Shown here piece by piece: positions 1 to 47,327 of a stretch of 64,000 nucleotides of DNA. The stretch's first letter is position 1. Each line of letters opens with the position of its first letter. The notes under the pieces were generated by a model. It saw only the letters and a program-made list of their open reading frames with translations. It was not told the DNA's origin and did no database searches. A program made the translations under genes and the position numbers. Where the stretch lies: positions 23,626,157 to 23,690,156 of the forward strand of contig CM060192.1 in NCBI GenBank assembly GCA_030549335.1, in the 5' to 3' direction. The DNA comes from Pontederia crassipes. Taxonomy: Eukaryota > Streptophyta > Magnoliopsida > Commelinales > Pontederiaceae.

Positions 1-1742
1 GAATAAAAAAGAGGAGGCTGCCCATTGCAGGGTTGGGGGAAGGCAGCAAGGGTTTTGGAGTTGGAGCTGAAGTGCTGAGGGATTTCTATCGACAGCTTCT
101 AACACAAGATGAATTCCTTCTGTTCTTCACTATATTTTGTATCAAGCTTTGTAATTATGAGGAGCTAAACTCCATGTCTCCTAGGATAGGGTAGTAGTCT
201 AGATAAATTGTGGATGGATATGGACATTTCTGATTTCCTGCACTGATTTCATAATTTCTGATTATCTGATTCTTGATTCTGCATTCAGAACTCATCTATT
301 TCTATCCTATTCTTGACATTGTATGATCTTGTGTATATCTACAACTGAGAGGTTGTTTTATGATCTGTTCTTGATTCAGAAATGAAACAAGAATCAATGA
401 CAAGTTCTAGGTCCAAATATGATTTAAGAATCTGATTCTCATCTAATTTAGTTTCTGAACTGCAATTTTGATTCCTGATTTGAGAAATCTGATGTCATTG
501 TAAACCCTCATTTTATTGGCTACTGAGAAGTAGATTAAGTGGGTTCTTCTTATTCAGAAATGTAATAAGAGGCAATGACAACTCCCCTGAATCAATTCTA
601 TAAAAACATGCTGTGGTCAAATCTGATTTGCATTTTGAGTTCTGATTTTTATGGAATTTGCATGTCATTGTGGAATCCCAATCTTATATGAAACTGATAG
701 GTTAATTCCTGACTTCCACTTTGTTCAGAAATGGACCAAGGAGCAATGGAAAATCTTAATTTCAATAAGTAACATGTGCTGAAATATTCCAATTGATTGA
801 TTTCTGCTTGTTCTAATTTAAGTGGAAATCTGATTTTCCTTGTAAAGCTCTGTTTTAACCTATCACTGAGAGGTGGTCATATGGCCTTCCTTGTAGTTCA
901 GAGATGAAGCAAGGAGCAAAGACAATTCCTGATTTTCAAACTTGTGATTCTATGCATATTGGTTCCAATTATCTAGTGTTAAGTGTGGATTTCATTTTCA
1001 ATTGCAGCCGAGAGGTTGAATTCAAATCCTCTTATAGTTTAGAGATAAATCAAGGAGCATTTGCACTAATATTGGATTGATTTCACCCCTGTTTAGTTGA
1101 TTGAAGCATTCCATTCATTTTCAATGTGCAATCTAGAAGTTATCATTCAGAATTTTATTGAATTTGCAAAAAATCAGCAAAGTGACTTGGATTGAACATA
1201 ATGATAACTTGATTTTCAGTGGGGATCATCTTCTAATTCAACTTGGCTAACAACTATATGATAATATATTATTTAGTTCTGGTCTAATTGAGCTGTGAAA
1301 ACAGCCATATTGAAGGTTGAATTAGATTTGACTAAAAAGTGATAACTTGTCCATTTCCATCCGTAATTAAATTAGAGGAACCCCAATTCCTAGGAGGACC
1401 TTCCTCATTGATAGATAAACCTTTTTAGCCTCTAGATTAGCATTTACAATTCAGTTTAGTTAACTTTTCAGACATCTAAAAATAGTTATCATTATGCATC
1501 CCTGAAAATTTTGTTTTCATTTCCATTTGAATTCCTATTTTTGTCACTTTAAATTAGATTAGTCTAAATTATTTTTAGTAGTCTAGGACTTTAAATATCT
1601 ATGGATATGACAACTTGGGTCTACTACAACTTACCTGTGCACTTACAAAAAGTGAGTTGGGGAGTTAGACCAAATATTGAAAAATTTCATTTCTTACACA
1701 AAATCAGCAAGTTATCACACACGTACCCAATATCACTTACCA
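1..1742 (+). repeat. Element A 5' LTR, 3' part only
   Basis: The sequence aligns with the LTR of element C from about C position 31440 onward: the block ending in GAGGAGCTAAACTCC, the hairpin modules, and the end block with GCACTTACAAAAAGTGAG. The boundary is set by ...CTTACCA followed by a six-base spacer and the primer binding site. Roughly the first kilobase of the LTR (U3 and TATA box) lies outside the window. Confidence 0.85.
341..1060 (+). other. Tandem hairpin-module array in LTR A (5 modules)
   Basis: Five modules of about 142-178 bp each hold two inverted repeats. Hairpin 1 is at 341-356, 520-533, 692-703, 862-877 and 1005-1018. Its stems differ but still pair: CAACT/GGTTG, CTACT/AGTAG, AACT/GGTT, TCACT/GGTGG, CAGCC/GGTTG. 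The loops are GAGA, or GATA in module 3. Hairpin 2 follows 12-25 bases later, near 368-393, 549-569, 720-740, 889-914 and 1031-1054, with GAAA or GAGA loops. Its outer arm is CTTG/CAAG or a variant, its inner arm TTCA/TGAA or TTTA/TAAA. All loops are on the LTR sense strand. The array lies downstream of where copies B, C, E and F have a TATA box. Function is unknown. Confidence 0.7.
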
Positions 1743-1748
1743 AGTTTT

Positions 1749-1766
1749 TGGCGCCGTTGCTGGGGA
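1749..1766 (+). other. Primer binding site for tRNA-Asp (element A)
   Basis: TGGCGCCGTTGCTGGGGA complements the 3' end of plant tRNA-Asp(GTC) with one mismatch; B and C have TTGCCGGGGA. This is the usual primer of Athila elements. It lies six bases after the LTR. Confidence 0.9.
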
Positions 1767-1934
1767 TTTGAGGTCAATTAGATTAACTTAGATAGTTTAG
1801 ATTAGTTTTAGACTAGTTTTCTGTCCATTTATTAGCCCAATTTTCAGTTTTTGCAAGTTATCATTCTCAATTTTTTAATTTTGTCTAGTTTTCTTTTCTT
1901 TTATGAATTTGATACTTCTGAATTCAATTTATGC

Positions 1935-2153
1935 AGGATTTGGAGCTTTAAGGAGACCTCTACCTATCTGATCCTGAACTGAAAGAAGATTCAATTAGAG
2001 AAGGAATTTGCAAAGAGAAGAGGCTAGGAGAAGAACTTTTGAGGAAGAGGCTACCAATCAAAACATGGCTGCTCCTAGGACACTAGGGATTGTTATTCAC
2101 CCAGCAAGTGCAGAAAATTTTGAATTTGACTTCTGAGAGAGAAAGAAGAAAAG
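1935..2153 (+). pseudogene. Gag N-terminal remnant of element A
   Basis: The stretch starts at ATGCAGGATTTGGAG and matches the first codons of the B and C gag genes (43415 downward and 48333 upward). It includes the arginine-rich stretch and the run encoding NMAAPRTL. It is broken by early stops and small indels and ends after about 70 codons, before the gag core. What follows is the unrelated frame at 2154. Only the leader and N-terminal gag signal survive, as in many non-autonomous derivatives. Confidence 0.7.
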
Positions 2154-3648
2154 ATGGATATGAGTTGGCAAACTTGGTTCTATGACTATTATCAATCAAG
2201 TGAAACACCCTTAAGCCAGGAGGAATTGGATTCTATAGTTGAAGATGTCGTGTCCAAAACTCTTCAAAAATATGGTTTTGATGTTGGAGAACCATCACAA
2301 GTTCATTGCAATCAAGGATCACTACAATTTCAACAGCCCTCTAATGCTTACATGTATGCCTCATATAGTCATGAAAGTTCAAATTACTGGAATCAAGAGG
2401 AAGGCTTCTCAAGCAGCAATCCTTATGTTTATGACTCACAAAATCATTTATATTACCATCACAATCAAGGTCGAGTCAAATTTTTAGGTTGCTACCATGG
2501 ATATTTCAGAAAATCAGCAATCACTTAATCGAATGGAGATTATGTTGGAGGACTTCATGAGGCGGCAAGATAAGCAACTTGCAAACTTGGAAAAAATATG
2601 TACGAGAGTAGATGTTCTTGGAGCTGGATATTAAGCCTTGGAGGCCAAGCTTTGTTTGCAGTCCAGTCAAGAAGCCTCACAAATCTAATCTACCCTTCCA
2701 AAAGAAGAAATTTAGGAAATGAAGATGGGAAGTGTGAAAGAAATGAATGAAGAAAAAGAAGTAGTCATGAAGGCTGAAGTTGAAAAGGAGTCTATCACAC
2801 TTATAGAACAATTCAAGAAATAAGTTGAAGTTGCAGAAGTTACTGAAAAGGGTACTCAAATGATACCAGCAATGAATCACATTGAAGACCCACTTATAAG
2901 GTTCCCATCCAATGAAGAACAACTTCTAGAAGACTCCGATATTGATTCTTTGAAGAAACTATCAGATACACTCCTTTGTGATGAGGGCTGCAATTCAATC
3001 CCTGCACCCAACTGTCCAAAAGTTCTACTTGAAGAAATTTGCTCCACAAACCATCATGGATCAGTTGAAGAATATCAACATCATAGAATCAAAGATGAAG
3101 AAACATTAAAAGAAAAGAAGTGGCCTGAACTTGATGCAAGCACTAATTCATTTGAAGTCATTCAAAGTTCCAAAGTCTCACCCATCTCATTTTCCATTGG
3201 ACAACAGGTTATGACAGTAAAGCCACATGATGAGACTGAAATGGCCAAGGAGAATACAAAAGTAGAAGAAATTTCTTTCCAAATGAAGGCTATAGCAGAA
3301 TTCAAATTTGTAGAAGGAATGAAATATTCAATGAAGGAAGATCATTATTTGCCTACTGAAAGATGAAACTAAGAGCTCAAAGATCTTCCAATAATGCTGC
3401 ATTTGAATAGGCCAATGAAGAAATGGTTGCTTAAACAAGATGGTGATTCAGGAGATAGAGATTCATATATCATACATGAGAAGTTTTGGGATGAGAAGTT
3501 AGTAGATTTTTGGTACAATGGAGGAGGGAATCAAACTGAAAAACAAAGGTCAATCATTAGCAAACTAAGAGATCCATACTTGATTAGTGAAGCTGTCCAC
3601 AAATTGAGATCTTTACTTGATCATATCATACTATTCAAACTTCCTTGA
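2154..3648 (+). pseudogene. Decayed reading frame of unknown function replacing gag-pol in element A
   Basis: The open segments 2154-2528, 2860-3366 and 3394-3648 belong to one ancestral frame. The first joins the rest through a frameshift near 2480-2497; from 2497 the frame is constant but has several in-frame stops (near 2632, 2685, 2715, 2821 and 3364). The N-terminus is acidic and rich in Tyr, Ser and Gln. The part at 2497-2670 is a helical, coiled-coil-like stretch that loosely resembles the C-terminal end of B gag (pattern QDKQLANLEKI). The rest is Glu/Lys-rich. I recognise no enzyme motif, zinc knuckle, signal peptide or membrane segment. It may be a very diverged gag-like protein or a captured host sequence; no function is assigned. 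Confidence 0.55.
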
Positions 3649-6770: not shown

Positions 6771-7594
6771 ATAGTAAACAGTGAAAATGAAGAAGAGGGG
6801 TTAGGGATTGAAGTAAATTCTTTGGCGTTTCCTCGAAACGCGACGCTACGTAGACACAATGTAGGCACCGCATTAAAAAAGAGAAAAAAGTAATAAAAAT
6901 TTGGCTAATGCGGTGATAGTGATATTTGGGATTAAGTAGTGATAACTTGCTGAAATTAAAGAAAGGGTCAAATTTTTCAATTTTTGGTCTCCCAACTCAC
7001 TAGTTGCAAGTGCACAGGTAAGTTGTAGTAGACTCAAGTTGTCGTACCCACAAGAATTTGAAGTCTAAGACACCCTAAAACAATCTAGATTAGTTCTACT
7101 CTAATGGCTAAAAATAGATTTTTAATTAGTAGTGAAAACATATTTTTTAATAGAAAGTGAAACGATAACAGATTATTGGGTTTTGGAAATTTATCAAAAC
7201 TAGGTTATAAATGCTAGAATGAAGTCTAAAATGGTTCAACTATCAATGAGGAAGGTTCTTCTAGGATTTGGGGTTCATCTAAATTAATTAAGGATGGAAT
7301 GGAACAAGTTATCATTAAATGTCCAACTTTTGATTCAACTTGAAAATGGCTGTTCCCACAGCTCAATTGGCCTCTAACTAAGTAATATATGATTATATAG
7401 TTGTTAGCTAGGTTGAATCAAAAGAGGGTCCTCACTGAAAATCAAGTTATCATTGGGCTCAAAAGAAAGTTCAATGCTGATTTTTGCAATTCAAGGAAGT
7501 TTGGAATGATAACTTGCAATTGCAATCATAAAAAGATGGGATCATTCCAATCAACCAAACCAAGATAAAATATACTCAATAATGGTGCTTGTGA

Positions 7595-8690
7595 TCCTTG
7601 ATTCATCTCTGAATTCGAGGAGGATTTAAAATCAACCTCTCGGTTGCAAAGTAAATTGAAATCCACACAAACACAAGTTCAATTGAAAATGCAAAACATA
7701 TGACTACAGGAATTCACAATTTCCATTGCTCCTTGGCCCATCTCTGGATCTCAAGGAAGCCCTTAAGACTACCTCTCAGTAGTGGATTAAAATGAGGGTT
7801 GACAATGCAAATCAGAATTCAAATGAAAATCAGAAATAGAATTAAGCAAATTCAGAAAACCGAAATACTAATCCATGAAACCAGGTTTATCAATTGCTTC
7901 TTGACCCATCCTTGGACTGCAAGAATCCCTAAAGTTCATCTCTCAATGATTGGATAAAATCAGGGGGTTCAATTGATAAAACAGTTCCAGCAGAAAATCA
8001 GAAAACAGATTTCATTAAGGTTCAGAAATCAAATTTGCAATCTGTTTTGAGTCAAAGATAATATGCCAACATCTTAATTCATTCCTGAACAAGATATGAG
8101 CAATGACAACATTTCAGTTACTCAATTGATCAGGTCCACAATGACAAATAAATTCAAATTATTCAGGAAATCAGATTCAGGAAAAAATCAGGAAATCAGA
8201 TTTTAGAAATCAGAATTTTAAATCAATGGAAATCTAACTTACCAACTGATTCTTGACCCATCTCTGGACTGCAAGACATCCCTAAAGTACACTTATCAGT
8301 GATTGGAAGAATTTAGGGGACTCAATTGGTAAAAATAGATTTCAGTAGGAAATCAGAAAAATCAGAATTCATGTTTTCATTTCAGAAATCAGTGGAAAAA
8401 TCTGATTTGAGTCAAATGATTGTCCAAACAATCTTGATTCATTTCTGAACAAAATAGGAACAATAGCAACTTCCCAAGGACTCAATTAATCAGATTGTAA
8501 GTGAAGAATAAATTCAACAGCCATACAAATCAGAATCAGATTCAGAAATCTTCAGAAAATTAGATATCAAGAAACCAAATCAGAAATCAGATTTGCAATT
8601 GAATGGAGTCCAGAAAACTGATATTAACTCTTAATTCACTTCTGTAAGATGATTAGATCAAGTAATACTTCTCAGTCATTGGTTACAATT
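7595..8690 (-). other. Hairpin-module array in solo LTR F
   Basis: Read on the minus strand, six or more modules carry the paired stem-loops. At 7606 and 7640 hairpin 2 has ATTCA/TGAAT and hairpin 1 CAACC/GGTTG. At 7733 and 7775 they have CCA/TGG with CCTTG/CAAGG, and ACTACT/GGTAGT. Near 8060 hairpin 2 has a GGAA loop; near 8265 and 8300 they have CTTG/CAAG with GTCCA/TGGGT, and CACT/AGTG. The module near 7905 has loop AGGA, an exception to GNRA. Confidence 0.65.
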
Positions 8691-9014
8691 GGATCTAATA
8701 GTAGCATAGCATAAATCAGTACATAATGTTTCTGAAATCTAAAAATCAGCAATGATTCAGTGCAGGAATTATAAAACAGTCCATATCCATCCAAAACTAA
8801 TCTAAACTACTACCCTATCCTGGAAGAAATGGAGTTTAGCTCCTCATGTTTACAAAGCTTGACAGAAAATAGAATGGGAAAAGATACAAATCATAGTTCT
8901 TCAAGATGTCTCGGCCAGCAGTAGCTCCCAGCAGCAATAGCTCCAACCACCACCTCCAAAACCCTTGCTCAAACCCCTGAATGACCAGCCCCCCTTTTCC
9001 TCCAGAAATTCCAC

Positions 9015-9022
9015 CTTTTATA
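9015..9022 (-). promoter_or_regulatory. Putative TATA box of LTR F
   Basis: TATAAAAG on the minus strand, between the CAAGTTATC array upstream and the hairpin array downstream. TATA motifs occur at the equivalent place in LTRs B, C, E and G, which supports the call. No transcript data are available. Confidence 0.6.
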
Positions 9023-9339
9023 TCACTCCTTTCCACCCTTTGATCAGTATCAGAATGTTCTAATCCTCCTGATTAAGCCACCTGTCCACTGCCTGGAAGA
9101 ATCTGCACTGCTGCAGACAACTTTTGGTGTAGGAATTCAGTGGTCCCCCCACCTTTTTCCACTTTTTGGCCAACTTTTCTCCCTGCTACAAAACCCAAAA
9201 AGCAAGCATCAAAGCCTTTGAATGATATTTTGACAAATAAAGATTAGGATAATGCTGGTAACTAGTTCAAATATCAGATGGGATTATGTGTTGTGCAGGA
9301 ATGAAAACTTATGTCGATATAAATGAATTTAAGGGCCCG

Positions 9340-9860
9340 GAATGATAACTTTAAGGAAATCTTGGAAAATGTCCTAATATGGATGGTTCAAAGCATTTCA
9401 AGCATCAAATGGATTAGAGTGACAAGTGAGTGAGGTCAGAAATCAAATATGAATGAGATTCCTAAGGAGTGATAACTTGGGTGCCCCAAAAACGATAACT
9501 TATATGACTTAAAAATGATAACTTGTGATAACTTGAGTTTGATTCCAAATGTGATGAAATTTGACCAGCAATGAGTTAGAAGAATAATAAGATGATTGCT
9601 TAAGGTCCCTGTGCAGAATTAATGATTTTGCATGTCGAAATGATAGAATTGCCCTTTAACGATAACTTGGCACTTGAAAAATGATAACTTGTTCAAATGG
9701 ACTTAAAACTTTGCACAAGTTGAGATGTGACTATCCAAATATGATTTATATATGATAATGATGGATTTAGGGCAAGAAAACCATTGAAAATCAGTTCATT
9801 CAAAATAATGATAACTTGACACTTAGGAATGATAACTTGTCCTCAAAATGATAACTTGGC
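9340..9860 (-). promoter_or_regulatory. U3 array of CAAGTTATC motifs in LTR F
   Basis: About eleven copies of CAAGTTATC(A/G)TT or close variants lie in roughly 520 bp, almost all in the same orientation, upstream of the TATA box. Equivalent arrays exist in C (30590-31100, +), B (35700-36230 and 46600-47120) and E (59945-60465). Position suggests transcription-factor binding sites; this is inference. Confidence 0.6.
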
Positions 9861-10062
9861 ATAGAATTTAAATATTAATGGATTTTGACATTTCAAAACC
9901 TCTATGAACATGGAATTAAGTATGAAATGAGGAATATCAACTAGTTATCATAATGTTTGCATTCGAAGTATAATTGGCCCAAAAATAGGCAAAAATGGGA
10001 CTCGATATGTATGAATTGCATCTAAAATGGGTTAGAAATATATAGTGATCAGCAAGTGATCA

Positions 10063-13029: not shown

Positions 13030-14654
13030 TTAGTGTAGGCATAAACCTTTCAAAACTAGAAACAGACTAAGGTTTAGGTGTAGACTATGCACAATAATAA
13101 ATTGAACAAGGTCTAGGCGTAGACTATGTACTCCTCACTTCACTGAACTGCAAGTGCACAAAACAGAGTAATAGACTCGAATGTCGTATCCACAGTGATT
13201 TGAAACTTAGGATTCACTGACTAATCTAAGTTAATCCTAGACTAAGTTAACTCTTGTTGGTGTTTTAAGGTGATTGATATAAAATGATAACTAACAAATA
13301 ATGAAAGGTTTTCTTAGGAATGGGATTCATGTAATATTCATGAATTAGAATAAGATAACAATAATAAGCATACTAGATTCAATATGAAAAAAACTGCTCT
13401 CACAGTACATTAAAGTTAGAACTAAGTGTCATACTCTCATATGAACATTAGTTAGGTTGATTCAACAAGGGTTCAACTGATATCAAAATATTATAAAACT
13501 TTCAGCTCAATGCATAGATACAATCGGATCTAGAAACTAATGCCAATTCTCTTGGTTTATCTCTAAACATCAAGGGAATCTAAAATCATCCTTTCGACTG
13601 TAATTTCATTATGAGATTGACATTAATAAAAGCTAAATGGATGTAACAATTCTCATCATGGAAAGATTACAATAAGAAAACCAAGTCAATATTCTTGGCT
13701 CATTTCTCAGAAATCACATATGAAATCAAATTCAGAAACTAATTTCTAATGCTCTTGGTTCATTTCTGAACAAAAAGGGAATAAGAATTAGCCTCTCAAC
13801 TGCCATTTTAATATAAGATTCACATTCAGATGAGCATGGATTAGAATAAAAAAACAAATGCTAATGCTCTAGACTCATTTCTGAGCAAGAAAGAATAAAA
13901 CATAAACTTCTCAGTTGCCATTCTAAATAGGATTCACACCAACAATAAATTGATTAAAAAATATTCAAAAATTACATTAATATCACTGACCAAAGTGTTG
14001 TTCAATCATCCATCCATAAACATAAATTATATTACTATCATATCCTAAGAGAGGTAAGATTTAGCTCCTCATAAATGTTGAAATCAATACAAAATAGATG
14101 CGGAACAAAATAAAAAATATTCTATACTATTAAGGTAGAATAATTAGCTCCAAGACTCAGCCTCCAGCAAAAACTCAACCTCCAATCAAATGGCTAGGAG
14201 AGGAGGAGGGCTCCCTCATTTCTCATCAACATCTCCCTTTTATATTCAATTATGATCACCAATTTATTCTCCTCACAACCTTCCCTTCCATCTGATTTTG
14301 CCATCTGTCCTTTGGTCCCCTCTTCTTTCAAAAAGATTACTCTCTACAAAGCTTTTTGGCAGTTGCAAAAAGTGGTCCCCTCCTCCTTTTCCAACATGAA
14401 TATTTGTCTTTTATGCTTGATTTTAATGCTACAACAATATGAACAATAAGAATCAATTACTCAAATGAAAATTAGATAAATAAGAACTAAATTACTATAT
14501 TATGCAGCTCAAATGTTCAAATGTAAGATAACATTATGCCGAGAAGATAAATGTATGTATATTAACCTTAATTATTAGAATATGAATATTTCAAGGCTTG
14601 TATGCACATGAAATAGAGTGAAAAAAAGCAAAATTATAGTATGATAAGCTAATG
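13030..14654 (-). repeat. LTR G: old, diverged Athila-like LTR inside copia (left edge approximate)
   Basis: It shares with the younger LTRs the block CTGCAAGTGCACAAAAC...TCGTATCCACAG (13148-13200), the hairpin 2 family (13545-13890), the CTCCTCATAAATGTT stop block (14068) and a TATA box (14237-14244). No primer site or coding region follows, so it is a solo LTR or fragment. A possible target duplication around ATGACTT (13024-13030 and 14654-14660) is too weak to fix the edges. Confidence 0.6.
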
Positions 14655-18339: not shown

Positions 18340-18900
18340 AGACGGTCTGAACCGTCTGTAAAATGGTTAGATCCGTCGGAAATAACGTTTTCCGACGGTT
18401 CTTTCGACAGATAGTGTCCGTGCGAAAATGAGGCGTCGCAAATAATTTGCGATGATTTTTTTCGAACCATCAATATTACTAATTGGCGGGGGCGGCCGTC
18501 GAACGTTGAGTTTCGACGGCACGAACCGCCGATATATATCGATGGTTATGACCGTCGATATATATCGACGGTTTAACCCGTCGATAGTCGACGGTTCATG
18601 CCGTCGATATTTATCGGCGGCTTGAACCGTTGATCCTATAGATGGTTAGTGTCGTCGATATCTATCGGCGGCTTGAACCGTCGATACTATCGACGGTTTT
18701 AATCGTCGATACATATCGGCGGCTTTAACCGTTGATAATATCGACGGGTTACACCGTCGACAAACTCATATCGACGGTTTTATCCGTCGACTCCACAGGT
18801 GATTTTCGACGGCTAAGACCGTCGATAATACTGCACGGACGGTTAGAACCGTCGGTAAGTATCGAAAAAATCCGTTGTCCATAACCAATTTTCAGCTATT
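18340..18900. repeat. CACTA2 left subterminal array
   Basis: Units of ATCGACGGTT and AACCGTCGAT alternate to form a run of short palindromes of the form CGACGGTTNNNAACCGTCG, with variants CGGCGG and CCGTTG. CACTA subterminal repeats are known TNPA-binding sites; here the palindromic alternation is unusually regular. Confidence 0.85.
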
Positions 18901-20554: not shown

Positions 20555-21942
20555 TCAACAATGTATAGCAATGCATGAAGTAATAGTTTTTTTAATGGCA
20601 AACAATGGCACATAATATACCTCGGCGTCGTCGTCGTTCAATTCGCCATGCATGAAGGCATGCATCATTTTCTTCATTTCAGTCTTGTTACGACGTTCAC
20701 GTTCTTCGAACTCCTTTCTGATCTTTTCCCTAATCGTATCCCTCATCTGATCCATAATTTCTTTCATACCACTTGGAGATGAACCTGAAGTAGATTTACG
20801 ACCATATCCAATATCTGTTGCACTCACAGAAGATCCAAGGTCGTAAATGCGATCCTTCTTCACGCCGACATGGTCCGTCCAAAGTTGTCTTGGGGTCAAC
20901 GGTGTGGTCCCCGCCTGCTTTCCGTCTCTTTCTCCTGCAATGGGATAATATTTTGTAACTTAAAGTATAATATTTTCTCGACATTATATTGAACGACCTT
21001 ACTATTTTCTTAGCAATCGTGCTCGTGGATACACATCCGCCCGAATGCAAGCGCGCTCCTTGGTCCGACTCTCGACTGGTTTTTACTTTTTTGCATTTCA
21101 ATTTGTACTGTTCGGTGGACCACTTTCGTAGCAAATCGATCCAAACGGCCTCGGGGATCCAATTGTGTCGTTCTCCATCAGCTTGAGCTTCCAAAAGCAT
21201 CGCGGACAATCTCTTCGAGCACCGAGAATTAAAAGCCTTCCACATTTGTTCTGTATTCTCGGGCTCCCACCACACATCAGCCTGCATGTGTATAAAAATA
21301 ATTAAAGTATTACGAAAATAAATTTTAATGGCCATGTTGGCTTCTAAGGGTACCCGAAATTTATTAAATAGCATTTGTCTCGTGGCATAAGGAACTTCCC
21401 TTCATGTAAGCCACGCTTCAATATACCTATGTCGCAACACTTTAGTAACTGCCGCAGCCGCGGGTTTTGATGGTACAAACGTGGAAGGACACAAAATTAT
21501 AAAATGTCATAGCTAAATCACAAAATGAATAAGGATTTGAAATACATAAAATAACACTTACCCTAAATTCCTATCTGGCTGCACGTATGCTTTGTAAACA
21601 CGATTTGAGGAAGCCTGGTCTGAGCGAACAACGAGCTCTGACGGGTTCTTCTGGCAATTGTGTCTCCAAGTCCATAATATCAGCGTGAGAGGAAGGACCC
21701 GACGGAGGAGAAGAACGTTCTATTATGCGAATGCCCGTGGCTGATCTAGGAGCCGACGGAGGAGAAGAACGTTCTGTTATGCGAATGCCCGTGACTGATC
21801 TAGGAGCCGACGGAGTACTGAGAGCTCTAGGGACGATCGACTCCTTTCCTTTATTTTTACTTTTACTAGAACGAAACATCTGCATGATACAAAATTTAAT
21901 CCAAGTCAAATTCACAATTGATAAAAAATTCAAATGTGACAA
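20555..21942 (-). pseudogene. TNPA-like protein gene (Transposase_24 / Ptta type) of CACTA2
   Basis: Three open segments on the minus strand (21571-21942, 20796-21374, 20555-20899) are separated by probable introns or frameshifts. The first is Ser/Pro-rich with an 18-residue repeat (APRS..GIRI.ERSSPPS) encoded by a 54-bp tandem repeat. The second has the pattern of PF03004: MWKAFNSRCSKRLS, WIPEAVW, LLRKWSTEQYK, then a Ser-rich GG stretch. The third holds DRIYDLGS and a charged helical region (MRDTIREKIRKEFEERER), suited to a coiled coil. In En/Spm, TNPA binds the subterminal repeats. The start is uncertain; exon joins cannot be fixed without RNA data. Confidence 0.75.
21701..21808. repeat. 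54-bp tandem duplication in the TNPA-like gene
   Basis: The copies at 21701-21754 and 21755-21808 differ at two bases. The length keeps the frame and gives an 18-residue protein repeat. Confidence 0.95.
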
Positions 21943-22364
21943 CGTCTCGACCTGACTATGTTCGGCTACGTCTTGTGTCGCATCTTTAGGAACGAAATTG
22001 TACGTATAACTCGAGAACCAATTCCTAATATCCGGAGGCGCTTATAAAAAATAAACAAATTAATTCGAATAAGCTTATGCGTATAATTCTTTTGATTATT
22101 ATTTCAAACACTCACGAGATGGTAGCAAATATAAGAATGCATCGTACTCGTCAGGCATCCGTCGATCCGATTGTTTGTCCACATGCATTGCTAACGCATC
22201 AAACAAACTATTGCGAGATGATAATTTGAATAAACCGATATGATACAACATGAAAATGAATCGTAAACGAACAATCCATAAGATGACAATAGTCTTAATA
22301 CAAGATCCCCATAGTTGTAAGATATAAAAATACAACATGATCGTGACATTAAGTAATAATAACG

Positions 22365-25300
22365 TTACTCATCATCTGGGTTACCACATGAATGGTACCC
22401 ATCATCATCATCTGAAGTTGACGTAGTTTCAAATTCATCTTAGTCCGAGCCGTTTTCATCATTTTGTATGTCGACGTTATAGAAGTCTTCAAATACGTGT
22501 TTCGAATCCTATAGATCGTCGACTAATTCGGTGTCTACAATAGGGGCCACAGAAGTATGCGAGTCATCTTGATATGCACATTGCAATGCACCATCAACTT
22601 CTATTCTGCTTCTCGCCTTCGTCTTTACTACAACCCACCATTGTGCTTTGTCCCTGGTCTTCTCCGGATATGACACATAATATACTTGTCTTGTAGAAGA
22701 CAGAATAATGAAAGGATCAAAACGATCATAACACCTATTGTGACGTATTTCAACTATTTTGAAATCTTTATGAACTTGCATCCCTATCCTTTCCTTTGGA
22801 TCAAACCAATTACACTCAAATAATGTGACTTCATTACCTCCAGTGTATTGCAGTTGAATAATGTCTTTGAGAATACCGTAGTAGTCGCGCTTATTTTCTT
22901 CGTCCGCGGATCCTATGACACATACTCCACTATTCACGGTTTTCTTCCCGATCGACCAAGTTTCAGTGTGAAACTTATAACCATTCGTAAAATACACCGG
23001 CCAACTTTTCACCTCTCGAGCCAGTCCCCATGCCAAATTTTGAAGATCAGACGCCGTGCCGGTACTGAGAACCTAATATGAAAATGAATGAGAAGAGTAT
23101 ACGCTGAAGATGTCAAATTGTTTAAAATATCGTAAGAGTTACCTGTTCCTTAAACCACGGTGCGAAGTCATTCTCGATTCTATCTTGTACATGTTCTTCA
23201 GGAACATTGTAGTATTGTAAGAAAGCACTACATAGAAAGTGATGGTTACATCAAAATGTTGTATGGGAAGACGTTAAAGAAAAGAACGCATGGATCTTAA
23301 ACTTACTTAATGTAGCCTTGCACCTCCTACATGTTTAGAAGGACATGATTCGTGGTAGACTTGAATTCTGCATCACTGAGCCATCTACTCTTTGGCTTCC
23401 CAAAATGTCATCCTAACTGATTGAAGATCGACAAAGATGCCACATTAGACTGTTCTTCTGGAACTTCATCATTTCGATGGACTCTGGTCCTCGCACACTT
23501 AATATGGGACTCTAAGTAGTAAGAACAGAAGTACGAAGTCTCCTGAATCATATACGCTTCACATATGGATCCTTCGACACGTGCTTTGTTCTTAATCGTC
23601 CTTTTAATTCGATTAAGATATCTTTCAAAAGGATACATCCACCTATATTGTACTGGTCCACCTACCCGTGCCTCATACGGCAGATGAATAGGTAAGTGCT
23701 CCATGAAATCAAAGAATCCCAGTGGAATTATTCATTCCAACTTACATAATATTATCGAAATATTACATTTCAATTGGGTCATATTTTCCACCGTTACTGT
23801 TGTAGAACACAATTCTTTGAAGAATTGACTCAACTCCGTTATCGGCTTCCAAATCTTGTCCGGGAGTGAAGAAAAAGCAATAGGAAGTAAAGTTTTCATG
23901 AATATGTGGCAGTCGTGACATTTCATGCCAAACAAACGCAAGTTATTTATGTCCACACAAAGGGTCAGATTTTATGCATAACCATCCGGCATTCTCAGCT
24001 CTTGGATCCAGCGACACACTTGAGTCTTCTGCTCCTTAGTAAGAACATAACTTGCCTTTGGTTTAGATAATCTACCGTTAGGTAAAGTCACTAAGTACAA
24101 CTCTGGCCTTCGACAGTACTCCTTCAAATCTAGTCTCGCATTTAGGTTGTTCTTTGTTTTGCCCTTAATGTCCGTTACGGTGTTGAATACATTTTTAAAC
24201 ACATTTCTCTCAATGTGCATGACGTACAAATTATGACGTATCAAACAATCAGACCAATAAGGTAAATCCCAAAATATACTTCGTTTGGTCCAATTATGAC
24301 AAACACCATACTCATCGTATGTGACATTTGGGTCGTCGATAATTCTGCATAAAGCATTGACAATGCGACGTAATTGAGCTCCTGAGCGTCTGACCGGAGC
24401 CATGTCTTCTACAATCCTATTCCGTCGAAATGCATTTCGGTTATTTATGTACGGATGAACAGCTGTAAGAAACCGTCTATGGCAATCAAACCAACTATTT
24501 TTACCCCCATTTCTCAAAGTTCTGGGTGTTCCATGCAACATGGACAAGTTAATTTCCCTGCGGTCATCCAACCAGACAACATCCCGTAGGCAGGAAAGTC
24601 ATTAATGGTCCACAATAAGGCAGCTTTCAAAGTGAAATTTTGTTTGGTCGACACATCATAAGCGACGACACCATCCCACAGTTCTTTTAGCTCGTCTATT
24701 AGAGGCTGTAAATACACGTCTATTCTCTGTTTAGGACTATGAGGACCAGGAATAATGCATGTCAAAAACATATAAGGTGCGGACATACAAATCCCAGGTG
24801 GCAAATTATAAGGTGTTATTATGACCGGCCAACATGAATAAGGAACTGAAGTCTGACCATACAGTGTAAAACCATCCGTGCATAATCCTAGCCTTATGTT
24901 CCTTTCGTCCCTAGCAAAATCAGGATGCTTACGATCAAAATGTTTCCACGCTTCACCATCCGATGGGTGAAGCATGACACCTTCAGAAGTATTATGCTGT
25001 GCATGCCACTTCATTTGCGACGCTGACCCTATAGACGAGTATAGTCTTTTAAGCCTTTGAATAAGAGGCAAATAATGCATTATTTTCACAGCCACTTGTG
25101 ACTTGTTAGTCACTCTATATCGTTCGGCCCCGCAAAATTTGCATTCATTTAGATTGATGTCATCACCGTAATATAACATACAACCATCATGACAACAATC
25201 TATTTTAGTTGAGCCAAGACCAAGTTTACTGACCAATCTTTTTGTCCTATAAAAATTTTTAGGAATACGAGCCCCAGTTGATGTGACCTCTTTTAAAATG

Positions 25301-25865
25301 TCTAGAAATGGATCAAAACATGCTTGTGAAATATTGTGGTCAACTTCATATTCAACAATCTAACAGCAAGTGATAGTTCGGAATGACTTTCACACCCAGG
25401 CCATAAGGGTTGGCTCGATGCGTTTAGTAAGTCATAAAAATCTCTTGCTTCTGGATTTGGTGCCTCTTCATTTTGCTCAAATCTAATATTGCCATACTCA
25501 GTTGCAGCTGCGTCATAAACTAACTGTTCATATTGCGAAGTAAATGTTGGTTCAGGATCGACAAAATGAAGATCTGAATTTGGGACGCTTGTCGAAGGCG
25601 CTCCTTCGTCTAAATCATCCCATTGCCAATAATTGGGCTTGAAACCCTTTCTATATAAGTGAACTTTAACAGTCTCTACCGTCTGTAACTTTGTGCTAGC
25701 ACATTTCAAACAATGACATATAATTGTTCCCTCCCGCTGATATTGGAAAGATTGACAAGCCACACTAACATAATAGTCAACGCCATCTATGAATTCTTGT
25801 GTCAAGCCTCTACGACCAGGATTATTTCTATTGTACATCCATCGACGATCGTTGGAGTCAGACAT
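22365..25865 (-). pseudogene. TNP2-like transposase gene of CACTA2
   Basis: Domains in order: Transpos_assoc (PF13963) at the N-terminus, from 25865, with EFIDGVDYYVSVA and a CxC-type knuckle (CHCLKC); TNP2 core (PF02992) across 24000-25250 with CPCCME and KNSWFDCHRRFL; DUF4218 (PF13960) around 23400-23960 with GMKCHDCH and LPYEARVGGPVQYRWMYPFER; DUF4216 (PF13952) at 22509-23036 with SGVCVIGS, YYGILKDIIQLQY, FECNWFD and DPFIILSS; then an acidic tail to the stop at 22365. Lesions: frameshift near 25356, frameshift near 24530, stops near 23970 and 23732 and in the tail. Introns are likely around 23060-23140 and 23240-23310. Domain names come from pattern recognition. Confidence 0.88.
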
Positions 25866-30376: not shown

Positions 30377-31417
30377 TGATCACTTGATGATCACTATATG
30401 TTTCTAGCCCATTTTAGATGCTTTTCACACATATCGAGTCCAACTTTTACCTATTTTTGGACCAATTATACCTGGAATGCAAACATTATGATAACTAATT
30501 GATATTCCTCATTTCATACTTAATTCCATGTGCATAGAGATTCTGAAATGCCAAAATCCATTAATATTTAAATTCTATGCCAAGTTATCATTTTGAGGAC
30601 AAGTTATCATTATTATATTTCAAGTTATCATTATTTTGAATGAACTGATTTTCAATGGTTTTCTTGCCCTAAATCCATCATTATTATGTATAAATCATAT
30701 TTGGATAGTCACATCTCAAATTGTGCAAAGTTTTAAGTCCATTTGAAGAAGTTATCATTTTTCAAGTGCCAAGGTATCGTTAAAGGGCAATTTTGTCATT
30801 TCAACATGCAAAACCATTAATTCTGCACAAGGACCTTAAGCAATCATCTTATTATTGTTCTAACTCATTGCTGGTCAAATTTCATCACATTTGGATAACC
30901 AAAACTCAAGTTATCATAAGTTATCGTTTTCAAGGCATTTAAGTTATCGTTTTTGGCACCCAAGTTATCATTTTTATGAAATCTTATTCATAATTGATTT
31001 CTAACCTCACTCGATTGCCATTATGATCCATTTGAAACCTTCAATGCCTTGAACCACTCCCACTTGAGTATTTTCCATGAAATGTAGAAGGTTATCATTT
31101 TGGGTTCCTTAAGTTGCAAATTTGATATCGGTTTTCATTCTTGCAACACACCAATTCCCTTTTTGCTATAGATCTGATTTTAACTGCTATCCTAATCTTT
31201 AGTTGTTTAAATATTATTAGAAGACTTTCATGCTTGATGTTTTGTCCCTTGTAGCAAGTGGAATAGGACTGAAAAAAAAGGAAGAAAAAGGAAGGGGGAC
31301 CACTAGCTTTTTGGCTGTCCAAAAAGCTCACTGCTGAAATTTCAGGACCAGAGGACAGGTGGCTCACATCAAAGCTAAGGAACATTTGGATGCTGATCTA
31401 AGGATGCACAAGACTCA

Positions 31418-31425
31418 TATAAAAT
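31418..31425 (+). promoter_or_regulatory. Putative TATA box of LTR C
   Basis: TATAAAAT lies upstream of the block shared by all LTR copies, about 340 bp before the first hairpin module. Transcription from here would place the hairpins in the RNA leader. Confidence 0.5.
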
Positions 31426-31759
31426 CTGAAATTTCTGGAGGAGGAAATGGGGGGCTGGTCATTCAGGGGTTTGAGCAAGGGTTTTGGAGCTGGTGGTTGG
31501 AGTTATTGCTGCTGGGAGCTGCTGCTGGCCGAGACATCTTGAAGAACTATGATTTGTATCTGTTTCTCATTCTATTTTCTGTCAAGCTTTGTAAACACGA
31601 GGAGATAAACTCCATTTCTTCTATGATGGAGTAGTAGTTTAGATTAGTTTTGGATGGATATGGACTGTTTTATAATTCCTGCACTGAATCATTGCTGATT
31701 TTCAGATTTCAGAAACATTCTGTACTGATTTATGCTATGCTACTATTAGATCCAATTGT

Positions 31760-32715
31760 AACCAATGACTGAGAAGTATTACTTGATCTAATCATCTTAC
31801 AGAAGTGAATTAAGAGTTAATGTCAGTTTTCTGGACTCCATTCAATTGCAAATCTGATTTCTGATTTGGTTTCCTGATATCTGATTTTCTGAAGATTTCT
31901 GAATCTGATTCTGATTTGTATGGCTGTTGAATTTATTCTTCACTTACAATCTGATTAATTGAGTCCTTGGGAAGTTGCTATTGTTCCTATCTTGTTCAGA
32001 AATGAATCAAGATTGTTTGGACAATCATTTGACTCAAATCAGATTTTCCACTGATTTCTGAAATGAAAACATGAATTCTGATTTTTCTGATTTCCTATTG
32101 AAATCTATTTTTACCAATTGAATCCCCTAAATTCTTCCAATCACTGATAAGTGTACTTTAGGGATGTCTTGCAATCCAGAGATGGGTCAAGAATCAGTTG
32201 GTAAGTTAGATTTCCATTGATTTAAAATTTTGATTTCTAAAATCTGATTTCCTGATTTTTTTCCTGAACAATTTGAATTTGTTTGTCATTGTGGACCTGA
32301 TTAATTGAGTAACTGAAATGTTGTCATTGCTCATATCTTGTTCAGGAATGAATTAAGATGTTGGCATATTATCTTTGACTCAAAACATATTGCAAATCTG
32401 ATTTCTGAACTTTAATGAAATTTGTTTTCTGATTTTCTGCTGGAACTGTTTTATCAATTGAACCCCCTGATTTTATCCAATCATTGAGAGATGAACTTTA
32501 GGGATTCTTGTAGTCCAGGGATGGGTCAAGAAGCAATTGATAAACCTGATTTCATGGATTTGTATTTCAGTTTTCTGAATTTGCATAATTCTATTTGCTG
32601 ATTTCTATTTCTGATTTCCATTTGAATTCTGATTTGCATTGTCAACCCTCATTTTAATCCACTACTAAGAGGTAGTCTTAAGGGCTTCCTTGAGATCCAG
32701 AGATGGGCCAAGGAG
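31760..32715 (+). other. Hairpin-module array in LTR C
   Basis: Hairpin 2 copies are at 31990-32012 (loop GAAA), 32168-32191 (GAGA), 32336-32358 (GGAA), 32505-32532 (GGGA) and 32688-32713 (GAGA). Hairpin 1 copies are at 32142-32153 (CACT/AGTG), 32481-32494 (TCATT/GATGA) and 32661-32676 (ACTACT/GGTAGT, loop AAGA). A last module continues after B at 47415-47428 and 47441-47465. The loop series GAAA, GAGA, GGAA, GGGA is what the GNRA rule allows. Confidence 0.7.
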
Positions 32716-35700
32716 TGATAGTGATATTTGGGTTTTCTAGTGATAACTTGCTAAAATTTAAGAAAATGTCAATTTTTTCATTTTTTTTGGTCTCCCAACT
32801 CACTAGCTGCAAGTGCACAGGTAAGTTGTAGTAGACTCAGGTTGTCGTATCCACAAGAATTTGAAGTCTAAGGCACCCTAAAACAATCTAAATTAGTTCT
32901 ACTTTAATGGCTAAAAACAGATTTTCAAAGGGAAGTGAAAACATATTTTTTTATGGAAAGTGAAAATGATAACAGATTTTTGGATTTTGGAAATTTATCA
33001 AAACTGAATTATAAATGCTAGAATTAAGTCTAAAAAGGTTTAACTATCTATGAGGAAGGTTCTTCTAGGATTTGGGGTTCATCTAAATTAATTAAGGATG
33101 GAATGGAACAAGTTATCATTAAATGTCCAACTTTTGATTCAACTTGAAAATGGCGGTTCCCACGGCTCAATTGGCCTCTAACTAAGCAATATATGATTAT
33201 ATAATTGTAAGCTAGGTTGAATCAAAAGAGGGTCCTCACTGAAAATCAAGTTATCATTGGGCTCAAAAGAAAGATTCAATGCTGATTTTTTTGCAATTCA
33301 AGGAAGTTTGGAATGATAACTTGCATTTGCAATAGTAAAAAGATGGAATCATTCCAATCAACCAAACCAGGATAAAATATACTCAATAATGGTGCTTGTG
33401 TTCCATGATTCATCTCTGAATTCAAGGGAGATTCAAAATCAACCTCTCGGTTGCAAAATAAATTGGAATCCACACAAACACACTCAATTGGAAATACAAA
33501 ACATATGGCCACATGAGTTCATAATTCCCATTGCTCCTTGGCCCATCTCTGGATCTCAAAGAAGCCCTTAAGACTACCTCTAAGTAGTGGATTAATATGA
33601 GGGTTGACAATGGAAATCAGAAGTTAATTAAATGAGAAAACAGAAATCAGCATTTCTGAAAAAATCAGCAATGTGGATTGATGGAATTCAAATTTGCCAA
33701 ATGCCCCTTGACCCATCTCTGGATTACAAGGGATTCCTAGAGTACACCTCTCAGTGATTTGAATAAAATAGGGATTAACAATTGGCAAATCAGATTCCAA
33801 ACAATAAGAAAATAGAATTTAGAATCAAACTAAGAAATCAGATTTTGGAAAAAAAATCAGATTTGAATTCTGAATTGTCAATGATCTTGATTCATTTCTG
33901 AATAAGATCATGGCATATATTAGCCTCTCAACTATTCAATTATCTAATCCTTGATGACAATCAGATTCAAAAGTCCAAGAAATCAGATTTTTAAATTCAG
34001 AAAACCAGATTCTGAAATTCAGGAATTTTAGGTTCCAAATCAAACTTAAGGTAATGTTGAGAATAGATTTGAATCATGGAATGCCCAAATATTCATAACT
34101 CAATTCTGAACAAGATTAGGATGAAGACCAACCTTCCAATTGCTCAATTAATCAAGTTCAGAATGTCAAATAGGTTCAAACAGTTCAGAAATCAGATAAC
34201 CAGAAAATCAGAATTAGAAATCAGTGGATTGTCCAAATAATCTTGATTCATTTTTTAACAAGATAGGGACAATAGCAACATCCCAAGAACTCAGATCCTT
34301 GATGACAATCAGATCCAAAGCCCAAGAAATCAGATTTTCAGACTTCAGGAATTCAGGAAACCAAAAAAATCAGCAACTCAGTAATTTAGAAATCAGAATT
34401 TTAAACCAATAGAAACCTGACTTACCAATTGATTCTTGACCCATCTCTGGATTACAAGACATCCCTAAAGTTCACTTATCAGCGAAGGGAATGATTCAGG
34501 GGACTCAATTGATAAAATCATATTCCAATTAGGAATCAGAAAAATTAGAATTCTGATTTTTATTCAAAAATCAATGGAAAATTCTGGTTTTGAGTCAAAT
34601 GATTGCCCAAACAATCTTGATTCATTTCTGAATAAGATAGGGACAATACCAACATCCCAAGGACTCAATTAACCAAGTTAAAAATGAAGAACAGATTCTG
34701 ATATCCACAGAAATCAGAAAATTCAGGAATCAGGAAATCAGAATTCAATTTTTAAAAATCAGATTATGAACAATAAACAGATTTGAATAATAAAGAATGC
34801 CAAATAATCTTGATTCATTTCTGATCAAGATTTGGGACAATATCAACCTTCTAGTTGCTCTATTAATCAAATCCACAATGGCAAACAGATTCAAAGGTCC
34901 AGGAATTCTGGTTCAGGAAATTCAGAAAAACAGAAACCAGAAATCTAAAATTCAGAAATCAGCACTTCAATTAAATTGGAAAAAAGAACTTGACATTGAT
35001 TTCTAATCCATTTCTGAACTAGGGATAGATCAAATGATAACTTCTCAGCTACAGATTACAATAGGATCCAACAATGGCAAGAACTAACATTAGAAAATTC
35101 TGAAATCTGAAAATCAGCAATTGATTCAGTGCAGGAATTAAAAAACAGTCCATATCCATCCAAAACTAATCTAAACTACTACCCTATCCTAGAAGAAATG
35201 GAGTTTAGCTCCTCATATTTACAAGATTTGACATCAAATGGGATAAGAAACAGATACAATTCATGGTTCTTTGAAGCTTCCTGGCCAGCAGCTCCTCCAC
35301 CAGAATCAATCCAGCCTTGCTTGCCTTCAAACCCTTGAATGACCAGCCTTTTTTCTCCTCCAGAAAAATTCAGCTTATATATCACTCCTTTCCACCCTTT
35401 GATCAGCATCTAAATGTTCTAATCCTCCTGATTGCAGCCACCTGTCCACCCCTCTGAAATTCCAGCTGCAGATTCCTTTTTGGTGCAGGAAAAAGTAGAT
35501 GGTCCCCCCCTACTTTTTCCACTTTTTGGCCACCTTTCTCCCTGCTACAAATCCCCAAACAGCAAGCATCAAAGCTCTTGAATGGTATTTTGACAAATAA
35601 GGATTAGGATAATGATAGTTGCTAGCTCAGATATCAAATGATATTAGGTGTTGTGCAGGAATGAAAACTTGTATCAAAATTAATGAATTAAGGGGCCCGG

Positions 35701-36424
35701 AATGATAACTTTATGAAAATCTTGGAAAATATCCTAATATGGGTGGTTCAAAGCATTTCAGGCATCAAATTGATTAGAGTGACAAGTGAGTGAGGTCAGA
35801 AATCAAATATGAATGAGATTCCTAAAAGTGATAACTTGAGTGCCCCAAAAACGATAACTTATATGACTTAAAAACGATAACTTGTCATAACTTGAGTTTT
35901 GATTATCCAAATGTGATGAAATTTGACCAGCAATGAGTTAGAACAATAATAAGATGATTGCTTAAGGTCCTTGTGCAGAATTAATGGTTTTTCATGTCGA
36001 AATGACAGAATTGCCCTTTAACGATAACTTGGCACTTGAAAAATGATAACTTGTTCAAATGGACTTAAAACTTTGCACAAGTTGAGATGTGACTATCCAA
36101 ATATGATTTATACATAATAATGATGGATTTAGGGCAAGAAAACCATTGAAAAGAAGTTCATTCAAAATAATGATAACTTGACACTTAAGAATGATAACTT
36201 GTCCTCAAAATGATAACTTGGCATAGAATTTAAATATTAATGGATTTTGGCATTTCAGAACCTCTATGCACATGGAATTAAGTATGAAATGAGGAATAAC
36301 AACTAGTTATCACAATGTTTGCATTCCAAGTATAATTGGCCCAAAAATAGGTAAAAGTGGGACTCCATATGTATGAATTTCATCTAAAATGGGTTAGAAT
36401 CATATAGTGATCAGCAAGTGATCA
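32716..36424 (-). repeat. Element B 3' LTR (3709 bp)
   Basis: Nearly identical to 43592-47327. By eye the pair differs at a few tens of positions plus a deletion of about 27 bp near 34228 in this copy (LTR F keeps the sequence). It carries a TATA box at 35374-35381, hairpin modules between about 33395 and 35060, and the CAAGTTATC array at about 35700-36230. Confidence 0.95.
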
Positions 36425-36441
36425 AACTCCCCCAAGCTTAG
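36425..36441 (-). other. Element B polypurine tract
   Basis: On the minus strand TAAGCTTGGGGGAGTT directly precedes the LTR start TGATCACTTGC. It is the plus-strand DNA primer of reverse transcription. Confidence 0.9.
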
Positions 36442-43415: not shown

Positions 43416-43567
43416 AAAGAGATTCAGAAGTATCAAATTCAAGAAAGAAATGAAAACTAGACAAAAATGAAAAGTAAGAAATGATAACTTGCAAAAACTG
43501 AAAATTAGCCTAACAAATAAACTAAAAACTAATCTAAACTATCTAAGTTAGCCTAATTGACCTCAAA

Positions 43568-46500: not shown

Positions 46501-47327
46501 TAAGGATTAGGATAATGGTAGTTGCTAGCTCAGATATCAAATGGTATTAGGTGTTGTGCAGGAATGAAAACTTGTATCAAAATTAATGAATTAAGGGGCC
46601 CGGAATGATAACTTTATGAAAATCTTGAAAAATGTCCTAATATGGGTGGTTCAAAGCATTTCAGGCATCAAATTGATTAGAGTGACAAGTGAGTGAGGTC
46701 AGAAATCAAATATGAATGAGATTCCTAAAAGTGATAACTTGAGTGCCCCAAAAACGATAACTTATATGACTTAAAAACGATAACTTGTCATAACTTGAGT
46801 TTTGATTATCCAAATGTGATGAAATTTGACCAGCAATGAGTTAGAACAATAATAAGATGATTGCTTAAGGTCCTTGTGCAGAATTAATGGTTTTTCATGT
46901 TGAAATGACAGAATTGCCCTTTAACGATAACTTGGCACTTGAAAAATGATAACTTGTTCAAATGGACTTAAAACTTTGCACAAGTTGAGATGTGACTATC
47001 CAAATATGATTTATACATAATAATGATGGATTTAGGGCAAGAAAACCATTGAAAATAAGTTCATTCAAAATAATGATAACTTGACACTTAGGAATGATAA
47101 CTTGTCCTCAAAATGATAACTTAGCATAGAATTTAAATATTAATGAATTTTGGCATTTCAGAACCTCTATGCACATGGAATTAAGTATGAAATGAGGAAT
47201 ATCAACTAGTTATCACAATGTTTGCATTCCAAGTATAATTGGCCCAAAAATAGGTAAAAGTGGGACTCCATATGTATGAATTTAATCTAAAATGGGTTAG
47301 AATCATATAGTGATCAGCAAGTGATCA
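43592..47327 (-). repeat. Element B 5' LTR (3736 bp)
   Basis: Termini match the other LTR. It carries a TATA box at 46277-46284, hairpin modules between about 44270 and 45960, and the CAAGTTATC array at about 46600-47120. It lies on the right because the element is inverted. Confidence 0.96.

Follow-up and report, generated by a model that had tools for sequence, protein, structure and literature searches.

Tandem arrays of structured three-way junction modules in the long terminal repeats of plant Ty3/gypsy elements

Structured leaders are already known in Ty1, Ty3, retroviruses and plant pararetroviruses. In Ty1, Ty3 and HIV-1, the sequences for tRNA annealing, dimerisation and packaging are described as part of a structured 5′ end of the RNA (PMC11381356). 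In alpha- and gammaretroviruses, hairpins with GACG tetraloops are reported to contribute to RNA packaging and dimerisation (PMC516450). The structured leader of Cauliflower mosaic virus is said to recruit parts of TREX, and mouse IAP and MusD elements to bear structured transport elements (both in the account of PMC12786077). Retrozymes are described with hammerheads, which are also three-way junctions, in their long terminal repeats (LTRs) (PMC4918200, PMC9695139). The cis-acting RNA of plant LTR retrotransposons is little known, though these elements form much of many plant genomes. Here, a stretch of 64,000 nucleotides of Pontederia crassipes (contig CM060192.1, positions 23,626,157 to 23,690,156; hereafter the window) was analysed, in which the LTRs of Ty3/gypsy elements hold tandem arrays of a structured RNA module.

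Module architecture and arrays

The arrays are named after the LTR copies that hold them (A, B, CF, D, E, H and the diverged copy Z). Each is a row of structured RNA modules, and each module is a three-way junction formed by an outer stem (P1), an arm composed of P2 and H1, and a hairpin, H2. The fold measures about 100 nt. H1 and H2 usually end in a GNRA loop (H1 in 35 and H2 in 39 of 46 modules). Between 3 and 10 copies are present per array, the 46 modules being the overall count for one window of one genome. The modules of array A are listed below with the score of their covariance-model (CM) match and their minimum free energy (MFE) fold.

307 to 423, forward strand: module 1, CM match of 94.6 bits, junction present in the free MFE fold; P1 312-321/395-404 with one A·A mismatch, H1 342-346/351-355 with loop GAGA at 347-350, H2 368-378/383-393 with loop GAAA at 379-382
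486 to 601, forward strand: module 2, CM match of 85.0 bits, with P1, P2, H1 and H2 in the free MFE fold; P1 493-500/573-580, P2 503-507/541-545 (AACCC/GGGTT), H1 520-524/529-533 with loop GAGA, H2 549-556/561-569 with loop GAAA at 557-560
656 to 772, forward strand: module 3, CM match of 87.5 bits, H1 loop GATA and H2 loop GAAA; constrained MFE fold without P1 and P2
828 to 945, forward strand: module 4, CM match of 99.6 bits; the free MFE fold differs
971 to 1086, forward strand: module 5, CM match of 80.2 bits and free MFE fold; P1 about 974-985/1058-1068 with a bulge, P2 987-992/1024-1029 (GGATTT/AAATCC), H1 CAGCC/GGTTG, H2 TTTA/TAAA with loop GAGA

An earlier note on this DNA had described a tandem unit of two hairpins at 341-1060. 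The stems it named are present in the sequence, namely CAACT/GGTTG, CTACT/AGTAG, AACT/GGTT, TCACT/GGTGG and CAGCC/GGTTG for H1, and TTCA/TGAA and TTTA/TAAA for the inner part of H2, with varying outer stems. The loops GAGA and GAAA and the single GATA are found as well, GATA lying strictly outside GNRA. Both hairpins are real, but the unit is a three-way junction with the additional helices P1 and P2. These two stems and the exact extent of the other arrays, which follow, go beyond that account.

7565 to 8713, reverse strand: array B, seven modules by CM match (7565, 7700, 7868, 8041, 8220, 8401, 8598)
13517 to 13951, reverse strand: array in the Z region, CM matches of 49-72 bits
13686 to 13723: partial H2-like stretch near the Z array matches (E 0.027)
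31731 to 32744, forward strand: array CF, six modules by CM match (31731, 31931, 32105, 32277, 32446, 32627), the sixth interrupted after 32715 by the inserted element DE, whose sequence makes up the 3′ part of the match
47381 to 47496, forward strand: seventh module of array CF, past the inserted DE, CM match of 92.9 bits
33372 to 35086, reverse strand: array D (3′ LTR of DE), 10 modules by CM match
44248 to 45989, reverse strand: array E (5′ LTR of DE), 10 modules by CM match, spacing 135-209
58606 to 59311, reverse strand: array H, four modules by CM match (58606, 58791, 59011, 59196)
58497 to 58607: possible decayed fifth module of H (18.4 bits, E 7.4e-5 with the sequence-only model; 20.5 bits, E 0.11 with structure)

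A subfamily of modules (31931, 8401, 34584, 45487, 45112, 34210) keeps H2, with H1 degraded or swapped for another short stem. In modules 45112 and 34210 a P1-like pair GATTGTC/GACAATC is seen.

Paired changes and strand preference

Modules were chosen by the core motif of H2. Four of its 37 matches (25301, 15924, 44536 and 33660, with no adjoining H1) were excluded by eye, and 27 of the 33 remaining modules were aligned by structure-blind MAFFT, six near copies in LTR D being omitted. The match at 25236 (E 0.14) was excluded from later module sets. When column stems of this alignment were ranked, H2 inner came 1st, H1 2nd, P1 5th, H2 outer 7th and P2 9th, and all of these nest; the stems ranked 3, 4, 6 and 8 conflict with them. 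Pairing was found in 80.5% of the cells compared to 70.9% after shuffling and 28-50% after sliding, and neither the observed pairing nor the doubly changed cells were matched in any of 500 column shuffles. With all 46 modules (42 distinct rows), pairing was 80.6% against 70.5±0.8% in shuffles and doubly changed cells were 123 against 52.9±6.3 (0/500 for both), although these shuffle tests lean toward the structure, which was picked from the 27-module alignment and to which the 46-module alignment was fitted.

A second, stronger null left unchanged the tree, the column composition and how many changes each column had undergone, and was applied to 31 of the 46 modules (<93% identity, alignment fitted to the model). 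Pairing was 80.6% against 69.1±2.5% and doubly changed cells were 87 against 29.6±8.0, with 0/500 simulations reaching either value. When the root was fully paired, the null gave 73.2±2.4% pairing (1/500) and 26.3±7.4 doubly changed cells (0/500). Compensatory changes are thus present beyond those expected from phylogeny.

The arm-swap test, in which the own partner arm of a module is compared with the partners of other modules, does not require a fine alignment. For each stem segment the mean fit was better with the own partner; in 18 non-redundant modules of the 27, z was 4.5 for P1, 3.5 for P2, 2.9 for H1, 2.7 for H2 outer and 3.5 for H2 inner. At two redundancy limits (18 and 23 of the 27 modules), at most 53 of 10000 permutations were as good on the sense strand for every stem segment. 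H2 inner belonged to the picking motif; P1, P2 and H1 did not. In terms of energy, the arm-swap z of P1 was -7.0 with 26 of the 46 modules. The same 46 modules are recovered by a sequence-only model, so pairing was no condition of being found.

P1 is the most telling stem, since its letters vary and the fit stays: it reads TGTCATTG/CAATGACA in module 486-601, GTGTTTGTG/CACAAGCAC in module 7565-7680 and TTTGCCA/TGGCAAA in module 44551-44669. P2 likewise occurs as AACCC/GGGTT (486-601), GGATTT/AAATCC (971-1086) and GAACC/GGTTC (59011-59126). Identity is 47-60% among the modules of array A and 50% on average over all pairs of the 46 modules, which shows that most modules are not recent copies; the exceptions are D and E, plus parts of B, CF and E. 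With only about half of their letters in common, the modules preserve the shape through paired changes. Selection on the folded RNA of the modules, as proposed in the earlier note, is supported by significant covariation in column shuffles, arm swaps and the tree-based null. The neutral copying that it had set against this proposal is disfavoured, as simulations from a perfectly paired ancestor attain the observed pairing in 1/500 runs and the double changes in 0/500. RNAalifold, a check it had named, recovers H1 and H2 alone; P1 and P2 are missed, probably because they slip by one base between modules.

On the sense strand, arrays A, E, B and H have 8, 13, 9 and 7 GNRA hairpins with a stem of at least 4 bp, and on the antisense strand 0, 1, 0 and 0, the background of the window being 1.0-1.6 per kb per strand. 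The claim that such loops occur on the sense strand only therefore holds for 37 of the 38 hairpins, the other being antisense in E. The mean folding z was -1.48 on the sense and -0.79 on the antisense strand, and the sense value was lower in 22 of 31 modules (31 of the 46; Wilcoxon p 4.5e-4). In 37 control windows outside the arrays of the same LTRs, folding z was about 0 on both strands (sense -0.02). Among non-Watson-Crick cells, 98 G·U were counted versus 34 A·C, the tree null predicting 106 and 82; a difference as large was obtained in 16/500 simulations with an inferred root and in 137/500 with a paired root, under which it is ordinary, and the excess of G·U over A·C is only a hint of sense-strand preference. 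On strand the picture is mixed: the fold is favoured on the sense strand, the one predicted to be transcribed, which folds better and bears the GNRA loops, with P2, which fits the antisense strand at least as well, and the paired-root null standing against this.

Host elements and predicted position in the RNA leader

The window contains several Ty3/gypsy LTR elements. The DNA is that of a plant, as all gag homologues with a name, among the best 120 of 223, are plant proteins (28-45% identical). Element DE is complete and of Ty3/gypsy type, with gag followed by reverse transcriptase (RT), RNase H and integrase (Pfam) between LTR E (43592-47328) and LTR D (32716-36425), which are 98.2% identical and bordered by the target-site duplication CTCCT. 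Its gag has one CCHC zinc knuckle, at residue 356 of the stop-to-stop frame, and the first gag ATG is at 43415, 177 nt past the LTR end. Directly after the LTR of DE lies the primer-site sequence TGGCGCCGTTGCCGGGGA, which would fit tRNA-Asp and the Athila lineage, the tentative label of the earlier note. DE is inserted (32715 / 47326, duplication CTCCT) into a module of another LTR, at a point that separates H2 from the 3′ strand of P1. The gag frame, the other LTRs and the landmarks of the leader are as follows.

42039 to 43538, reverse strand: gag open reading frame of DE (Pfam PF03732, 3.4e-18)
30377 to 32715: LTR C, which resumes as F at about 47326 beyond the inserted DE (together CF)
6914 to 10062: LTR B, solitary and flanked by a perfect 5-bp duplication (CCGCA)
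before base 1 to about 1745: LTR A
about 57894 to 60665: LTR H
about 13.5 to 14.1 kb: Z, a diverged LTR-like copy
147 to 224, forward strand: conserved block, about 80 nt long and immediately upstream of array A, from the alignment of LTRs A, B, CF, D, E and H, and by eye in Z
46274 to 46288 (approximate), reverse strand: promoter-like TATA box GATATATAAGC, near LTR position 1043 of E and roughly 300 nt ahead of the array

The TATA box is located at LTR 1041-1045 in E, D, B, H and CF; further TATA-like words are present, for example at LTR 314 and 3072 of E. The arrays are probably transcribed, because the box lies about 300 nt upstream in five LTRs. Array E spans positions 1340-3081 of the 3737 of its LTR and is followed by the LTR end and the primer-site sequence. 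Judged from this layout, the array should sit in the leader of the genomic RNA, between the conserved block of about 80 bases and the primer site, and would take up a large part of that leader, which from cap site to gag would measure 1.7 to over 2.6 kb. The LTR part of the leader amounts to 2662 nt with 35 AUGs in E, 2074 nt with 31 in B and 1697 nt with 29 in H, when the cap site is presumed 30 nt past the TATA box. With so many leader AUGs, translation of gag needs some way round them.

The linkers between modules are U-rich. CTGATTT is enriched in the arrays, mostly in the linkers (e.g. 423-486 and 601-656), with sense versus antisense counts of 16/2 in E, 14/1 in B, 16/1 in C, 5/0 in A and 8/0 in H; array Z has none. 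In four LTR stretches counted outside the arrays, it occurs at most once per strand.

Elsewhere in the window, matches to the plant snoRNA family snoR71 of Rfam (45 bits) lie at 42769-42875 (forward) and 48873-48979 (reverse), inside the gag frames of two copies of the element and antisense to them; the snoR71 family model was perhaps seeded by, or moves with, the element. A 465-bp unit is present in two copies, 97% alike, at 53981-54893 in the internal region adjoining element CF. At 18513-18790 a palindromic unit TCGACGG..CCGTCGA forms a tandem array in which long hairpins are possible, and 20796-25359 holds fragments of plant transposases (Pfam Transposase_21, plus Transposase_24 under its cut-off).

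Possible roles and comparison with known systems

The best explanation as a whole is that of structured module arrays in the leader acting as repeated Gag-binding sites, for which we put the probability at about 45%. As to mechanism, binding of the element's own Gag, for packaging or dimerisation, is tentatively rated likeliest. The grounds, drawn largely by analogy, are the predicted leader position, purine tetraloops as in GACG hairpins, the additive copy number and the zinc knuckle of Gag; a copy number that varies from 3 to 10 with a constant fold suits an additive role. Many weak or medium Gag sites in one leader would provide avidity, through which the full-length RNA would be picked, paired and packed into particles. 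The U-rich linkers, in which UCUGAUUU occurs on the sense strand, may serve as single-stranded spacers or may belong to the site itself. A more doubtful elaboration is a new type of leader RNA, a modular and expandable row of same-shape junctions, each with two GNRA loops, that would act as a multivalent scaffold for Gag to bring two genomic RNAs together, the copy number being tuned by module duplication as element lineages diverged. On this reading, the array would represent a defined RNA for packaging or assembly in a plant Ty3-type element, perhaps the first of its sort, and a domain of RNA that outlives a drop in identity to about half; packaging, if correct, would further show by what means plant elements distinguish genomic RNA from mRNA.

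Several points weigh against this explanation. The cap and poly(A) sites are predicted, and the RNA could have the array at its 5′ end alone or at each of its ends. A single window of one genome supplied every module. CCHC knuckles are nothing unusual in gag, the module loops are GNRA and not GACG, and we know of no packaging hairpins in rows of up to ten, those known being single or paired. As regards the fold, P2 is without sense preference and fits the antisense strand slightly better in the arm swap. The pair-type count is no higher than in shuffles (172/500 for 27 modules, 84/500 for 46), and of the 6441 column pairs ranked by an all-pairs G-test with average product correction, the top 45 include only 7 of the 25 structural ones, rank 1 among them. 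P1, H1 and H2 occur together in only 12 of 27 free MFE folds by our own count, and 4 of 31 modules, module 3 of array A among them, form no P1 even in a fold constrained to contain H1 and H2. At least 8 loose P1 pairs form in 27 of 31 modules and also in 55% of the runs with shuffled flanks, a control that is not sharp; with at least 4 P2 pairs in addition, the figures are 16 of 31 modules and 12.7% of the shuffles. Lastly, for 13 modules that were neither seed nor near copy, the paired model gave more bits than the sequence-only model in 12 and a better E-value in 2, and this comparison is not counted as support.

Ranked second after Gag binding is a role in nuclear export or translation of the full-length RNA, in which the array would recruit export factors, or let ribosomes get past the AUG-rich leader by shunting or internal entry. 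This has a real but lesser chance of being right. With 29-35 AUGs in 1697-2662 nt, ordinary scanning would hardly pass, and there are the viral and mouse precedents reported in PMC12786077; neither role, though, obviously requires up to ten alike modules, and the array may be spliced out. It is improbable that the inverted repeats act as DNA, in the form of transcription-factor sites or cruciforms. Sirevirus LTRs carry clustered palindromic repeats that have been likened to transcriptional activators (PMC2829016), the complementarity exists on the antisense strand too, and for P2 the fit there is no poorer than on the sense strand. However, the GNRA loops are nearly all on one strand, the sense folding z is lower in 22 of 31 modules, the array is downstream of the TATA box where the Sirevirus repeats are upstream, and the letters of P1 vary, unlike a conserved protein site on DNA.

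Flaviviruses carry tandem exonuclease-resistant three-way junctions, and the modules, which are junctions in tandem too and are predicted to lie close to the RNA's 5′ end, might similarly block 5′-to-3′ decay. Known exoribonuclease-resistant RNAs depend on a pseudoknot, and the mostly GNRA loops argue against loop pairing of that type; moreover, Rfam scans gave nothing of this kind, either in the window at gathering score or in arrays A and E at E <=10. Though uncapped packaged RNA, as reported for the packaged RNA pool of BARE (PMC3735527), would profit from such a block, it is rather unlikely. Slightly less likely still, the modules could be neutral sub-repeats derived from one inverted-repeat ancestor, with pairing as a leftover. 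Being tandem, they must have arisen by duplication, and a paired ancestor already predicts much of the pairing (73.2±2.4%), but the observed pairing is met in 1/500 simulations and the doubly changed cells in 0/500. Between six modules of LTRs B and C, moreover, 3/287 stem sites, 5/220 sites of the unpaired core and 11/304 linker sites differ, which are small numbers. The U3 regions of B and C differ at 191/1030 sites, far above the array; this gap may reflect recombination rather than selection and is not leaned on. Least probable by far is a self-cleaving ribozyme, as in retrozymes, whose LTRs likewise hold three-way junctions (PMC4918200, PMC9695139): no Rfam ribozyme was found at E <=10 in arrays A and E or at gathering score in the window. 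The junction of the modules is also without a hammerhead core, as far as we know that core.

The only family found by an Rfam gathering scan of the window was snoR71, outside the arrays, and permissive Rfam scans of arrays A and E gave only sub-gathering matches, none of this shape. When viral contigs were scanned for H1 and H2 words and 80 loci among at least 120 stretches were searched with the covariance model, the best score was 23.8 bits (E 0.07), so the words of H1 and H2 alone bring no fold. An RT query of viral contigs found no relative. No paper on such an LTR fold was among the matches listed from an open-licence library, most subscription papers lying outside that scope. The array is a tandem LTR repeat in which the unit is maintained less through its letters than through its RNA shape, and the module, a discrete and model-ready RNA domain with covariation support, can be used for searches of plant genomes, probing, deletion and tests with Gag.

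Among described systems, the modules resemble the GACG hairpins of alpha- and gammaretroviruses and maedi-visna, as presented in PMC516450: in both, the hairpins are short, end in purine-rich tetraloops and belong to the leader of retroelement genomic RNA, the leader position being predicted here. In contrast to those hairpins, they have mostly GAGA or GAAA loops, form the arms of a closed three-way junction, stand 3-10 in a row and lie inside the LTR. The GACG double-hairpin packaging signal was considered and set aside, with no GACG tetraloop among the 46 H1 and 46 H2 loops. Sirevirus palindromes are similar in being clustered inverted-repeat motifs of plant LTR retrotransposons, conserved in non-coding sequence; they differ in being short, with a CGG-CCG core, upstream of the TATA box and read as DNA sites, according to PMC2829016. 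The modules have a fold of about 100 nt with paired changes and lie downstream of the TATA box. To our knowledge, the transport elements of IAP and MusD are not arrays of one module. The likeness to them is that of structured RNA in an LTR element, the IAP and MusD ones serving the full-length transcript (PMC12786077). With retrozymes the modules share a structured three-way junction RNA inside a plant LTR. A hammerhead retrozyme was set aside as a candidate for lack of any Rfam ribozyme match; the elements described here differ further from retrozymes in that the complete element, DE, encodes both gag and pol.
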